Source of the DNA: Acidobacteriota bacterium
GTDB taxonomy: Bacteria > Acidobacteriota > Terriglobia > Versatilivoradales > Versatilivoraceae
Length of the DNA stretch: 47,130 nt
Assembly (NCBI GenBank): GCA_022821775.1
Contig: JAJECY010000282.1
Coordinates: 1-47,130 of the forward strand
Reading direction: 5' to 3'
The position numbers were made by a program, and so were the translations under genes. A model generated the notes under the pieces. That model worked only from the letters and a program-made list of their open reading frames with translations, did no database searches and was not told the origin of the DNA. Positions 11,033 to 36,651 of the stretch are shown here, piece by piece. Within the stretch, counting starts at the first letter, position 1. The number at the start of each line of letters is the position of its first letter.

Positions 11033-11109
11033 GAGCCGTTTGCAAAATTCGTCGCCGAGCGCCGGGGATTCGCGTCCGTCCCCTACCTGCGGAATTTTGC
11101 AAAAGGCTC
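11033..11109. repeat. Short inverted-repeat element (MITE-like)
   Basis: Terminal inverted repeats of 18 bp, GAGCCGTTTGCAAAATTC at 11033-11050 and GAATTTTGCAAAAGGCTC at 11092-11109, match at 17 of 18 positions and enclose 41 bases. A single arm with one change recurs at 32089-32106. The element lies between the divergent der and methyltransferase genes and may contribute promoter or leader sequence. No target duplication is obvious. Confidence 0.65.
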
Positions 11110-31809: not shown

Positions 31810-31843
31810 CGATGTTCCCGGTTTGTGGTGTGGAGGATGCCCA

Positions 31844-32057
31844 CCCGGGAGCGCGGGCGTCCCGCCCGCATCATGTCCGGCACAGCTTTGGCCCTCTCCG
31901 CCGCTCGGATCGACCCGGTACTGCGCCGTGGGTCTGCTTCGGTTTGGCCGTTGAGGTTGCCACCGACAGGCTGGCTACCCTCAGCACCGGACGAAAGCTC
32001 AGCACCAGCGAAAGGAATGAGGCATAAGGATGCGGGCGGGACGCCCGCGCTCCCGGG
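31844..32057. repeat. Inverted pair of GC palindromes (copies 3 and 4), REPIN-like
   Basis: Copies at 31844-31870 and 32031-32057 are exact reverse complements of each other over 27 bases and enclose about 160 bases. The inner flank of the left copy, read in reverse, resembles the flank at 27075-27090 (GCTGTGCC then GGCATG versus GGACATG). The intergenic gap 31810-32114 is filled by this element and the half repeat at 32089. No gene is visible in it. Confidence 0.8.
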
Positions 32058-32088
32058 TGGGCGCCCTTTGGGCCGCCCCTGCAGATCC

Positions 32089-32106
32089 GAATTTCGCAAA
32101 AGGCTC
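32089..32106. repeat. Solo arm of the TTTGCAAAATTC-type inverted repeat
   Basis: GAATTTCGCAAAAGGCTC matches the right arm of the 11033-11109 element with a single T-to-C change. It ends 8 bases before the ATG of the next gene, whose only ribosome-binding-like sequence (AAAAGG) lies inside this repeat. Confidence 0.6.
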
Positions 32107-32114
32107 CACTGTCA

Positions 32115-34322
32115 ATGTCGTTTCGACTCAAGAGCACTGGTCGCCGTCAACTCGTCCTGGCCTTGCTGCTGCTCGGCCTGGCGGCCTTCTGCCATCGTCA
32201 GGAAGCGCCGCCGGATGCCAATCCGGCCGGCGCCCCCGCCGCCCTGCAGGACCTTTACGCCATCTTCAGCCATGAGATCAGACGCGAAGCGGTCGGCAAC
32301 GTCTACCAAGGCGTGGGTAATCGCTTCCAACTGGAGGGAAATCTCTACGTGGCGGTCCTGAAGGCCCTCAACGCCTACGACATCCTCCAGGAGACCACCC
32401 GCCTGCCCGAAGCCGACCGGGAACGGCTGCTGCCCAGGAGCCAGCAGGAAGCCGGGGAGGCCTTTGCCGCCCTGGAAGAATCCCTGGACTGGCCCCGCAT
32501 TCGGGTGGAGGTGGGTGTACAGGACTTCGAGCTCCAGAGTCTTCCCAAACTCGACCTTCACCGGGAAATCCCTCAGCCGATTCTGCTCACGCTTCACAAC
32601 CCCACCTCCGAGGCCCGCAGGCTCTCTCTCCGGAGTTCCGGTCTGAGGATGGAGGTGGACTCCGTGGAGGTGGCTCCCTCGGCCACCCGGCACCTGCTGG
32701 CCCATGTCGATGCCCCAAAAACCGGGGAAGGCGCGGCCTGCCTTTCTGTGGGGTCCGAGGGAATGAGCGTGGCCTGGCGCCTTCCATACCGGGTCGCGGA
32801 AACCGGCCTGCTGGAGGGGCGGCTGGTGGAGGCGGAGGGCGGCGCCCCGACAATCGGCCGGATTCGAGCCATCGACGCCGAAGGGCGCTACCGGCCGCCG
32901 CTGGAAGCCGAATACGGTCTGATTCTGCGGCCGCGGAGGGCGCCAACCCGCTGGAGCTACGCATCCGGCAGCTTCCGCCTGCGAGCCCCGGCCGGCAAGA
33001 TCCGGATTTCCATCCGGCGAGGCCTGGAATATCTACCCATCGACGAGGAGTTGCAGCTTGAGGCCGGTCAGACCCTGCGGCGCACCTTTGCGCTCAAGCG
33101 CTGGGCAAACATGGAGCGGGAAGGATGGCATTCCGGAGACACCCACATCCACATGCTGGACCCACCCAGCGCGCTGTTCGAGATGCAGGCGGAGAACCTG
33201 CGGGTCGGCCATGTTCTCGTGCTGGAGCATATGGGGAAGATCTACTCCAAGGAGCACTTCCGCGGCGAACTGGACCCGATATCCGATGCCCGGCACTTGG
33301 TCTACTTCAACCAGGAGTACCGCAACCAGACCCTGGGCCACGTCAGCCTGCTCAGCCTCAAGACGCTGGTGGAGCCCATCTCCACCGGCGGACTGGCCGT
33401 TCCGGAGACCACCGTCTATCGCTATTCCTACCTGAGACCCTCCCGCAAGGGGTTCCCCCGCCACGGTCGGGACGGCTGGCCCGACGCACTGGTGCTGGAC
33501 GCCATGCGGGAAACCCACCGGCAGGGAGGGTTGGTCAACTGGGCCCACCTGCGTCCCGCTCAACTCGAGTTCCCCGTCGACATGGTGTTCGGCGAGATCG
33601 ACACCGCCGACATCCTGACCCACACCCGGCTCCCGCAAACCCTGAAGCTCTGGTACAGCCTGTTGAACTGCGGCTTCCGCCTGCCCGCCACGGCGGGAAC
33701 CGACCGCATCGGGCCCGAGGAGCCGGTGGGGCACCAGAGGGTCTACGTCAAGCTGGACGGCCCCCTCACCTACCCCGCATGGATGGAAGGACTGCGCCTG
33801 GGCCGCTCCTTCGTGACCAACGGACCCATGGTCAGCCTCTCGGTGGACGGCCGGGGACCCGGCGAGACATTGACCCTCAGCAAACGCAAGGTCCTTGCCA
33901 TCCAAGCCCGGGCGCGCTCCCTGAGGCCCTTCGAGCGGCTGGAGATCGTGGTCAACGGGAAGGTGGCGGCCAGTGTCCCGGCGCAAGGCCAGGGGCGCCG
34001 CGCGGAGCTCAGTCTCGATTACCCGGCCGACCAGAGCCTGTGGATCGCGGCTCGCTGCATGGGGGGATCCCCCGAAGAAACCTCCATCTGGACCCATCCC
34101 CTGTTCGCCCACGCCAACCCGGTCCATGTCGATTACACGGGACGGGACCTGGCCGATCCCGAGAGCGCATGCTATCTGCTCGACTTCCTGAAGCCGCTGG
34201 AGAAGTGGGCCCGGGAGGAAGCCTGGTTCGAGAATCGGGACCGGAAGGACCAGGCTCTGGCCACCATTCGCCAGGGCATGGATTTCTACCGCCGCCTGTG
34301 CAAGGGGGAAGGCAGGAACTGA
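32115..34322 (+). CDS. CehA/McbA-type PHP-domain metallohydrolase, exported
   Basis: A 735-residue protein with an N-terminal hydrophobic signal segment (LVLALLLLGLAAFC); the Cys is preceded by Phe, so a lipobox is not convincing. Residues about 40-330 are beta-rich and of unknown function. From about 335 there is a PHP-fold hydrolase: GWHSGDTHIHML (first metal His pair), VLVLEHMGKIYSKEHF, QTLGHVSLLSLKTLV, GGLVNWAHLRPAQLEFP and LPATAGTDRIGPEE supply the other His/Asp ligands. A C-terminal beta domain follows. This is the pattern of CehA/McbA proteins, which include carbaryl hydrolase, but most members in this genomic setting are uncharacterised. The co-directional secreted neighbours suggest a shared catabolic role. 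Confidence 0.82.
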   Translation: MSFRLKSTGRRQLVLALLLLGLAAFCHRQEAPPDANPAGAPAALQDLYAIFSHEIRREAVGNVYQGVGNRFQLEGNLYVAVLKALNAYDILQETTRLPEADRERLLPRSQQEAGEAFAALEESLDWPRIRVEVGVQDFELQSLPKLDLHREIPQPILLTLHNPTSEARRLSLRSSGLRMEVDSVEVAPSATRHLLAHVDAPKTGEGAACLSVGSEGMSVAWRLPYRVAETGLLEGRLVEAEGGAPTIGRIRAIDAEGRYRPPLEAEYGLILRPRRAPTRWSYASGSFRLRAPAGKIRISIRRGLEYLPIDEELQLEAGQTLRRTFALKRWANMEREGWHSGDTHIHMLDPPSALFEMQAENLRVGHVLVLEHMGKIYSKEHFRGELDPISDARHLVYFNQEYRNQTLGHVSLLSLKTLVEPISTGGLAVPETTVYRYSYLRPSRKGFPRHGRDGWPDALVLDAMRETHRQGGLVNWAHLRPAQLEFPVDMVFGEIDTADILTHTRLPQTLKLWYSLLNCGFRLPATAGTDRIGPEEPVGHQRVYVKLDGPLTYPAWMEGLRLGRSFVTNGPMVSLSVDGRGPGETLTLSKRKVLAIQARARSLRPFERLEIVVNGKVAASVPAQGQGRRAELSLDYPADQSLWIAARCMGGSPEETSIWTHPLFAHANPVHVDYTGRDLADPESACYLLDFLKPLEKWAREEAWFENRDRKDQALATIRQGMDFYRRLCKGEGRN

Positions 34323-34346
34323 CCGGACGTCACCTTCGGTGCGCCC

Positions 34347-34466
34347 GGGGACGTTGTTGAACTACTGGAATAACTCTTGCGAGTAGTGCGAGGAGGAGAC
34401 CTTGTTGAATAACAGGAATTCAGGAAGCGCCGATCCAAGTTATTCCAGTAATTCAACAACGTCCCC
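34347..34466. mobile_element. 120-bp MITE-like element with 29-bp terminal inverted repeats
   Basis: The arms at 34347-34375 and 34438-34466 are reverse complements at 28 of 29 positions; the single mismatch pairs 34362 with 34451. Each begins GGGGACGTTGTTGAA and continues TACTGGAATAACT or its variant. The 62-base centre contains GGAGGAG (34392-34398) and two TTG codons. No target-site duplication is visible. The transcript would form a long hairpin with the ribosome binding site in the loop. No transposase is present, so it is non-autonomous or a folded regulatory cassette. Confidence 0.8.
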
Positions 34467-36651
34467 TACTCCCTTGGCCAAGTCAAGCCTGGTCCTGCTG
34501 CTCTGCCTGACCCTTGGCGCCTGCACCCGGTCCTCGGATGGCCCGAGCCCGGCAGACAGCAAGGGGGCGGGGAACTGGAAACGGGAACAGCGCAGCTTCG
34601 TCTACCTCTCGGAGAGACGCGCCCGCTACGCGGGGATCACCCGCAGCGCCGAGGGGCGGCTGCTGATCCTGTATACCCACCAGACGGCCCAACAGGAACG
34701 GGACGGCTCGGGAGATCTCCACCTGGTCCGCCGGACCCGGGACGGGGACTGGTGGTTTTATCCGGAGACGGTCTTCGAAGGCCGGCAGGGGGAACCCCGG
34801 GCCATGGGCACCCTGGCCACCCTGCAATCCGGCCGTATCATCGCCCCCTTCGCCGAGCTGAACGACGGCGCCGCCGGCAGCCGGCTGCGGCTGCTCTCCT
34901 CCGGCGACCACGGCGACACCTGGACCGCCACTGCGCCCCTTGGGACCCACCCCCTGATCTGGGCCGCACCCTACGGAAGGCCCTTCGAGGCGGGCGACCG
35001 GGTGCTGATGCCGGTCCACGGGGCCGTCAGCCAAGAGGACCTGGCGGCCACCCGACTGCAGTCGGGACTGCTGCAGTCCACCGATGGCGGCGAGAGCTGG
35101 GGGGATTGGATCCCGATCGCCGTTCCGGGCCCGGAGGCGGGCCTCAGCTACGAGTTTCCGGCGGTGCTTCCCCTGGAGGACGGGACTTGGCTGGCGGTCC
35201 TCACCGAGAGGCGATTGAAGAAGCGTCCCGGGCTTCCCCTGGATGTTCCGCAGAGGCTGGTGCGGTCCTACAGCAACGACCAGGGCAGGAGCTGGACCCG
35301 ACCGGAGCCTCTGTGCGTCGGCTCCTGGGCCAGCCTGACCCCCATGGGGGATGGCACGGTGGCCTGCTCCTTCGCTCTCTGGTCGGCCTGGGGCAGCATG
35401 GAAGTCATGTTCAGCGACGACGGCTTCCGAACCATCCGCCACCGGATCCCCTTTGTGGAGCACAACTGGCTGCCCGGCTACGGACCCAGCGGGTGGGGCA
35501 AGGGCTGGGCGCGTGACCCCATTCCCCTGCCCCCGGTAGTGCCCAACCTGGAAGGGGACTGGAAGGCCGGCCACTACGGATTTTCTTCCGGCCTGGCGCT
35601 GGACGAGGACCGCTTGATGCTGGTGCTTGGGCAGCGGCAAAAGGGCAGCGGCTACACCGAACCGCCCCACCAGGTGAACCTTCCCATCGAGAAGGAGCGG
35701 ATCGAAACCATTGTCATGAAGCGGGTGCGGGAGCCCTCGGCCCCGGACGCCGAACCTCCGCGGGCCCATGGAGAGCCGGACGGACAGTGGTACCTGGCCG
35801 AACGATGGCCCGAGGAGGAGTGGCGCCGGAAAGTCGGGCAGCCGCCCAACGACGTGACCCTGGTGCTCGAGTCGGGGCGCTGGATACGCCTCACCGCCAA
35901 GTACACCGTTCCCCACCGGCACGGTCCCGGCAGAATCCTGGGGCGGGAGCGGGGTTACTGGGTCTGGAAGTCGATCGACGGCCTCCACTACCGGACCCAC
36001 CTGCAAGGCTCCTATTCCGATGATCAGGGAAAGACCTGGAAGCAAGCCAAGGTGGAGGACCCGGTGCCGCTGGCTGCCGCCGTGCACCTGGGGGGCGTGG
36101 CCTTCGAAGAGCCGGACGGAACCCTGGTGGCTCCCGTCTACGGCTACCTGAACCAGGACGACATGTCGGTCTCCCTCTACGTCTCCGCCCTGGTGAGGTC
36201 CCACGACGGAGGCGCCTCCTGGGGCGACTGGAGCACCATCGCCTACGATGGGAAGAACCGCTACACCGCCTACAGCGAGACCCAGGTCATGGCCCTTTCC
36301 GATGACACCTGGGTGGCTTTTCTCCGCAGCGAAAACCGCAGCTACGTCCCGGTGATGCGGGCCTTCATCTCCCGGACCCTCAGCACCGATCGGGGAAAGA
36401 CCTGGAGCCCGCCCCAACCCACGGCCGCGGCCGGGGTGACGGCCGGACTGCGGCTGCCGGACGGAGGGATTGCCCTGTCTGCTCAGAACACCTGCGGCTG
36501 GGGACTGGCGGTCACCTACAACTACGGCCAGAGCTGGAACTACGTGCTGCCGGCCACCTACTTCTCGGCCCGGGCCGGCGTGATCGACGACAAGTCCTTC
36601 TGGCTCCACGACGCCCACGGGGGGATCGTGTCCATCTATCGCCGGCCCTGA
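34402..36651 (+). CDS. Sialidase-family (BNR/Asp-box) double-propeller lipoprotein
   Basis: A 749-residue protein with at least six Asp boxes: SSGDHGDTW, STDGGESW, SNDQGRSW in the first half and SDDQGKTW, SHDGGASW, STDRGKTW in the second. This suggests two tandem sialidase-like propellers. I do not see the FRIP Arg motif or a certain catalytic Tyr/Glu set, so hydrolysis of sialic acid is not proven. A lipoprotein signal, SSLVLLLCLTLGAC, is visible. The start is unusual: TTG at 34402 or 34405 follows GGAGGAG inside the inverted-repeat element, whereas the in-frame TTG at 34474 just after the element would give a normal signal peptide (MAKSSLV...) but has no ribosome binding site. It probably works with the flanking exported hydrolases. 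Confidence 0.82.
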   Translation: MLNNRNSGSADPSYSSNSTTSPTPLAKSSLVLLLCLTLGACTRSSDGPSPADSKGAGNWKREQRSFVYLSERRARYAGITRSAEGRLLILYTHQTAQQERDGSGDLHLVRRTRDGDWWFYPETVFEGRQGEPRAMGTLATLQSGRIIAPFAELNDGAAGSRLRLLSSGDHGDTWTATAPLGTHPLIWAAPYGRPFEAGDRVLMPVHGAVSQEDLAATRLQSGLLQSTDGGESWGDWIPIAVPGPEAGLSYEFPAVLPLEDGTWLAVLTERRLKKRPGLPLDVPQRLVRSYSNDQGRSWTRPEPLCVGSWASLTPMGDGTVACSFALWSAWGSMEVMFSDDGFRTIRHRIPFVEHNWLPGYGPSGWGKGWARDPIPLPPVVPNLEGDWKAGHYGFSSGLALDEDRLMLVLGQRQKGSGYTEPPHQVNLPIEKERIETIVMKRVREPSAPDAEPPRAHGEPDGQWYLAERWPEEEWRRKVGQPPNDVTLVLESGRWIRLTAKYTVPHRHGPGRILGRERGYWVWKSIDGLHYRTHLQGSYSDDQGKTWKQAKVEDPVPLAAAVHLGGVAFEEPDGTLVAPVYGYLNQDDMSVSLYVSALVRSHDGGASWGDWSTIAYDGKNRYTAYSETQVMALSDDTWVAFLRSENRSYVPVMRAFISRTLSTDRGKTWSPPQPTAAAGVTAGLRLPDGGIALSAQNTCGWGLAVTYNYGQSWNYVLPATYFSARAGVIDDKSFWLHDAHGGIVSIYRRP

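Follow-up and report, generated by a model that had tools for sequence, protein, structure and literature searches.

Replacement of the translation-initiation signals of a lipoprotein gene by a palindromic element in an Acidobacteriota genome

A palindrome across the start of a lipoprotein gene

The DNA analysed (the window, 47,130 nucleotides of an Acidobacteriota contig) carries a 749-codon open reading frame whose product has BNR/sialidase-type repeats (PF13088, E 4.6e-24), in agreement with the sialidase-family assignment made in the original prediction. The predicted 120-bp element with 29-bp inverted repeats lying across the start of this gene was re-found at 34347-34466, with arms that are 28/29 complementary (97%) and 62 nt apart. 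By a simple estimate, ~1e-9 inverted repeats of this kind are expected by chance in a sequence of the size of the window. The arm sequence of the window element is GGGGACGT, and the features of the locus are listed below.

32115..34322, + strand: upstream 735-codon gene, its end kept beside the orthologue in several relatives
34347..34375, + strand: left arm (A) of the palindrome, from an inverted-repeat search, 28/29 complementary to the right arm
34390..34419, + strand: inner, degenerate third arm copy (A'), holding the Shine-Dalgarno (SD) sequence and TTG codons, 83% complementary to 34442-34471
34392..34398, + strand: SD sequence GGAGGAG, read from the sequence, inside the inner arm copy
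34402..34407, + strand: two in-frame TTG start candidates (34402, 34405), both inside the inner arm copy
34402..36651, + strand: 749-codon ORF, sialidase/BNR-like lipoprotein, from the ORF list, a profile match and orthologues 88-95% identical
34438..34466, + strand: right arm (A*) of the palindrome, from the inverted-repeat search
34467..34473, + strand: junction TACTCCC, which is the consensus element flank (TAYTC..) and equally ancestral codons 2-3 (ACT CCC)
34474..34476, + strand: in-frame TTG without SD, ancestral codon 4 (Leu/Ser in relatives), from the sequence and orthologue comparison
34522-34524, + strand: lipobox Cys codon of the 749-codon ORF, from the sequence

The GGAGGAG and TTG codons predicted inside the loop were found there, with the refinement that they belong to a third, degenerate arm copy, which is also present in other copies of the element and can pair with the right arm. 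The window SD/anti-SD duplex (-11.3 kcal/mol) ranked third in strength among 70 element copies, and TTG 34405 is the counterpart of a TTG retained in most of them. Since a TAG at 34384 closes the frame upstream, the only ATG, GTG or TTG starts before the lipobox Cys codon are 34402, 34405 and 34474. The last of these lies 8 nt beyond the element with no purine-rich site upstream, in keeping with its earlier description as a codon without a ribosome-binding site. Two other repeats were observed near the 735-codon gene, namely a GC-rich repeat, CCACCCGGGAGCGCGGGCGTCCCGCCCGC, present upstream of it as two inverted copies (31841-31869 and 32032-32060), and half an end of a DDE element at 32089-32106, with 8 nt between it and the ATG of the gene.

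Signals lost from the gene

The gene has six orthologues in the same genus, all genomes compared being metagenome assemblies. The element is missing from all six, which share GAGGAAYCCN-ATG-ACY-CCC, that is, an ATG behind a GAGGA SD; as the original prediction implied, the N-terminal extension was found in none of these element-free genes. One orthologue (G002) has an internal TGA, which is either real or an assembly error. In the sister genome (G005), 56 nt separate the stop of the preceding gene from the ATG, the last of them reading TCGAGGAACCCC, while in the window 24 leader nt remain (34323..34346, +), followed by the element and then by TACTCCCTTGGCC, in which ACT CCC represents ancestral codons 2-3 and TTG 34474 ancestral codon 4. 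The ancestral SD, the ATG and ~32 of the 56 leader bases are gone, and therefore the old start no longer exists.

Comparison with these relatives shows that the insertion replaced the ancestral initiation signals of the gene, leaving it no start signal but one within or immediately beside the hairpin. The part of the original prediction that concerned replaced translation initiation was thus upheld, while a mere separation of gene and leader was not, as the signals themselves were lost. The predicted addition of about 24 residues was corrected to a net extension of 20-21 residues over the ancestral protein (start at 34405 or 34402), because ancestral Thr2-Pro3 survive in frame. No target-site duplication was seen at the window insertion, which came with a deletion. 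The nearest other element copy in the same genome is only 86% identical, which makes a chimeric assembly through the repeat unlikely.

The window gene appears to remain under purifying selection, with dN 0.021 and dS 0.108 against its sister (dN/dS ~0.19). The window branch carries 22 synonymous and 13 nonsynonymous codon changes and the sister branch, without the element, 19 and 13; selection on the element-encoded peptide is inseparable from arm pairing.

The element family and its transposase

A search for other copies, proposed along with the original prediction, found ~70 distinct full copies of ~116 bp each (71 in the set compared) in seven genomes of the host genus (Acidobacteriota, Ca. 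Versatilivorator group), 22 near full-length copies plus many half copies being in the window's own genome. Within a class-wide sample of 200 genomes, the element matched only in these seven members and was absent from the other 193; protein matches in public relatives were named Acidobacteriota, Terriglobia, Candidatus Versatilivorator vitaminiformans. At the edges of the element, GTGAATA usually abuts GGGGACG on one side and GTGCAGCGCT abuts GGGGACG on the other, and the loop was found in both orientations relative to these flanks. In the frame of the loop TTG, no stop interrupts 61 of 70 copies before the right end; with partial elements included, this holds for 86 of 96 units.

Other arrangements of the repeat were also observed. 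At G001:C1:2894061-2895983 (L135), three partial elements, all pointing the same way, spaced by 638 and 1207 bp and each with an identical upstream flank, resemble an amplified array. At G000:C20:10154-11245 (L132), a HigBA-like toxin-antitoxin pair lies exactly between two arm pairs, the HigA-like protein ending in residues (DVVELLE-stop) that are encoded by arm DNA, and the same contig has further arm pairs with small genes between them.

In one relative (G001, L212), element arms at 874(+) and 2184(-) flank a 321-aa ORF (898-1863, -) that matches PF01797 (Y1) with 31.9 bits (cut-off 23), the 3' arm touching the gene end. The C-terminus of this transposase matches Bac_DnaA_C at 255-317 (E 6.8e-5, 23.3 bits, below the 31.5 cut-off), and the protein also gave HTH_3 at 23.1 bits and NCBIfam REP_Tyr_transpos at 61.2 bits (below the cut-off of 80), together with NHAH and YIHLNP motifs spotted by eye. 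G000, G002, G004 and G005 retain remnants of the gene together with the same 3' arm; in the window's own genome, only a 51-codon remnant is left. Given the Y1/HuH transposase enclosed by its arms in one relative, we classify the element, from its sequence relationships, as a member-like, non-autonomous palindromic derivative of a TIRYT-type (RAYT group) transposon; in addition to the flanked Y1 gene, there are dispersed copies and six orthologous loci without the element.

Koribacter, itself an acidobacterium, is among the hosts in which TIR repeats associated with TIRYTs have been described (Di Nocera et al. 2013, PMC3733652). In the part of that work drawn on here, TIR repeats and TIRtrons share with the present element arms in common with a Y1 transposase gene, arms that begin with GGGG, copies paired in opposite orientation and moderate abundance; the HTH/DnaA_C-like C-terminus of their transposase may have a counterpart in the below-cut-off matches given above. 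The arms and Y1 gene of G001 have the TIRtron arrangement and resemble Y1 subclass 2.1 in the portion of the HuH survey consulted (PMC6006769). The arm GGGGACGT fits the TIR motif GGGGWSAS at 6 of 8 positions. Unlike TIRtrons, the present element has three arm copies; gene-start replacement is not among the features given for TIRtrons in the portion of PMC3733652 used. REPINs mobilized by RAYTs (PMC3116915) are likewise non-autonomous, Y1 transposase-linked hairpins formed by a palindromic doublet, but they consist of short GTAG-tagged REPs, whereas here 29-nt arms form one long stem.

Several other assignments were considered and rejected. A GTAG-tagged REP is a palindrome of 20-40 bp, against 116-120 bp here, and the outer bases of the element are usually AATA/AGTA versus AGCGCT. 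A DDE-type MITE with target-site duplication was set aside, as the flanks differ between the two sides in the window and the other copies read, and leader bases were deleted. The arms (GTTGAAT-like 5', ATTCAAC 3') have the opposite polarity to an integron attC site (RYYYAAC 5', GTTRRRY 3'), and a comparison with structured RNAs in Rfam gave only chance-level matches, none above the gathering score. As a mobilizer, a second Y1 transposase of the window's own genome, of RAYT type and lying amid palindromic repeats of another family (G000:C304:4948-5292, L061), was discarded, with no arm copy in the 3.3 kb read around it.

Many palindrome copies sit inside a longer repeat ending in GAGCCTTTTGCAAAATTC. 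This sequence was rejected as the element's own end: it belongs, as inverted repeat, to a 1,487-bp DDE insertion sequence (best hit IS1182, below cut-off) and is absent from the window copy. The insertion sequence itself lies at G001:C1:2382094-2383580 (L245) with a 391-aa transposase (NCBIfam best IS1182, below cut-off), and several end pairs in G001 are spaced exactly as in it. Within the window, 11033-11109 holds a 77-bp miniature element with the ends of this insertion sequence but without the palindrome; its flanks AGCGCC, GGGG and ATTCGCG surround the palindrome elsewhere, making it an empty or deleted version.

Repeated start replacement and probable initiation from the loop

In two relatives, the element occupies the start of another gene. 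In the gene for a HEAT/biotinyl membrane protein (G003:C31, P0001), whose orthologues start ATG-CCT-GAT, the SD, the ATG and ~14 codons were replaced by an element placed directly after the stop of the upstream gene; the protein resumes at PKRRGLGWG, and the stretch from the element to the transmembrane segment contains no start codon. In the gene for a Rieske protein (G004:C64, P0002), for which six orthologues begin with an ATG after the upstream gene, an element took the place of SD, ATG and ~8 codons; its GAATAG now serves as the stop of the upstream gene, and the only start codon beyond the element is a TTG without a good SD. Both genes are joined in frame to the loop TTG, while the other orthologues keep the ATG, and the two replacements arose independently. 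The same replacement, independently at two other genes, suggests that the element family carries a usable translation-start cassette.

A codon-usage scan of 96 units, on both sides and in all frames, found only three long intact genes without a start of their own, all in the frame of the loop TTG. With random junctions, the probability that all three fall in one of the six side-and-frame classes is ~0.005; the sample is small, with just three cases, and they were identified post hoc. The remaining start-less junctions, L070 and L078, belong to fragments (61 and 78 codons) outside the reach of the loop frame, and genes that keep their own start near element units are in mixed frames. The SD strength of the three fused copies (ranks 2, 3 and 47 of 70) is suggestive only. 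In the window's own genome, one copy (L003) precedes, by 16 nt and in frame, the intact SD and ATG of an enolase-superfamily gene, which needs nothing from it; an independent, decayed palindrome copy (L157 in G004) lies upstream of the same gene.

The best explanation as a whole, which we regard as probable and which supports the interpretation offered originally, is that a TIRYT/RAYT-type element replaced the start of the lipoprotein gene and that initiation occurs in the loop through its SD and TTG. The element inserted into the gene's leader, with the losses described above, and the gene kept an open frame continuous with that of the element's loop. Ribosomes would start at TTG 34402 or 34405, in the hairpin loop, via the GGAGGAG of the inner arm copy, producing a pre-lipoprotein with the extra residues ahead of an intact signal sequence; loop starts of this kind would give peptides such as NSGSADPSYSSNSTTSPTPLAK. 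The cassette would consist of SD, TTG and a reading frame open out of the right end, and could stand in for lost starts.

Translation may instead begin at TTG 34474, just outside the hairpin, with the element as a 5' leader only and a near-ancestral signal peptide (MAKSSLVLLLCLTLGAC). Such a start would give an ordinary lipoprotein signal and has published precedent, since many REPs at predicted N-termini were argued to be untranslated, with the true start downstream (Di Nocera et al., PMC3733652, in the part cited). However, no SD precedes this codon, it is ~94% paired in the folding model and it is a start in no orthologue, while the HEAT/biotinyl and Rieske junctions, as described above, offer no start or only a poor one beyond the element. 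A downstream start also has no need of the loop frame, and yet all three junctions are in it, so that we consider this reading unlikely.

The whole element folds far better than shuffled sequences (z -5.3), with the outer arms paired and the SD and TTG in the loop. When the left arm is removed, the right arm takes the inner copy as its partner (z -3.6), and the unpaired fraction of the loop TTG in the model ensemble is 0.01, as compared with 0.24 in the whole element; the mean for the SD is 0.45, and the loop TTG is mostly paired. TTG is a weak start codon. Outer-arm pairing would leave the SD and TTG in the loop, while pairing between inner copy and right arm might, less securely, hide them. 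On these models the hairpin may also tune expression, a two-state start being plausible, and the 29-bp stem could be a target of RNase III, a cut that would detach the loop from the gene. We raise only tentatively, as a doubtful extension, that the element is a portable gene-junction cassette that can end the upstream gene and supplies SD, TTG and open frame, thereby allowing genes to outlive the removal of their own start, with a start made switchable by three-arm pairing.

The strong stem, and the location of most copies near genes that keep their own start, would also suit an element acting mainly on RNA, as an RNase III or stability element between cotranscribed genes, with the loop start incidental. 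Correia/NEMIS and ERIC are likewise long-stem repeats beside genes and possible RNase targets, and Correia-bearing mRNAs are reportedly cleaved by RNase III (review PMC10969869), but what is known of the action of these repeats concerns RNA stability or promoters, not the supply of start cassettes. This account leaves unexplained both the translation of a gene without another good start and the repeated in-frame junctions, and we judge it very unlikely. Finally, that the insertion silenced the gene, leaving it untranslated or a decaying pseudogene in this strain, as the loss of SD and ATG and the strong hairpin might suggest, is the least credible reading in view of the 749 open codons, the low dN/dS, branch counts like those of the element-free sister and the in-frame junctions at three genes.

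With initiation from the loop as the preferred reading, the nearest precedent for in-frame coding palindromes, N-termini included, is that of the Rickettsia palindromic elements, which have a conserved reading frame and lie in frame in unrelated genes, some N-terminally. Going by their description, those elements insert into or extend genes, whereas here the gene's own start was deleted and the element must provide one. MITEAba12 and other bacterial MITEs are short TIR elements with start codons near their ends that could fuse with neighbours (PMC6382973); there, fusion is a possibility drawn from the consensus, while here three junctions have element-free orthologues. In the open literature, we found only general statements on MITE-supplied start codons, and no report of a repeat family that repeatedly stands in for deleted starts. 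The element itself is of a known kind; what is new is its apparent use in place of the translation-initiation regions of three unrelated genes.

Mobile repeats are well known as carriers of promoters, terminators or RNA-processing sites for genes. A different mode of domestication is seen where the whole initiation region is replaced repeatedly, with the losses evident from element-free orthologues. It illustrates how a single step can alter signal peptides and N-termini, and annotation should allow that a gene start may sit within a mobile hairpin.
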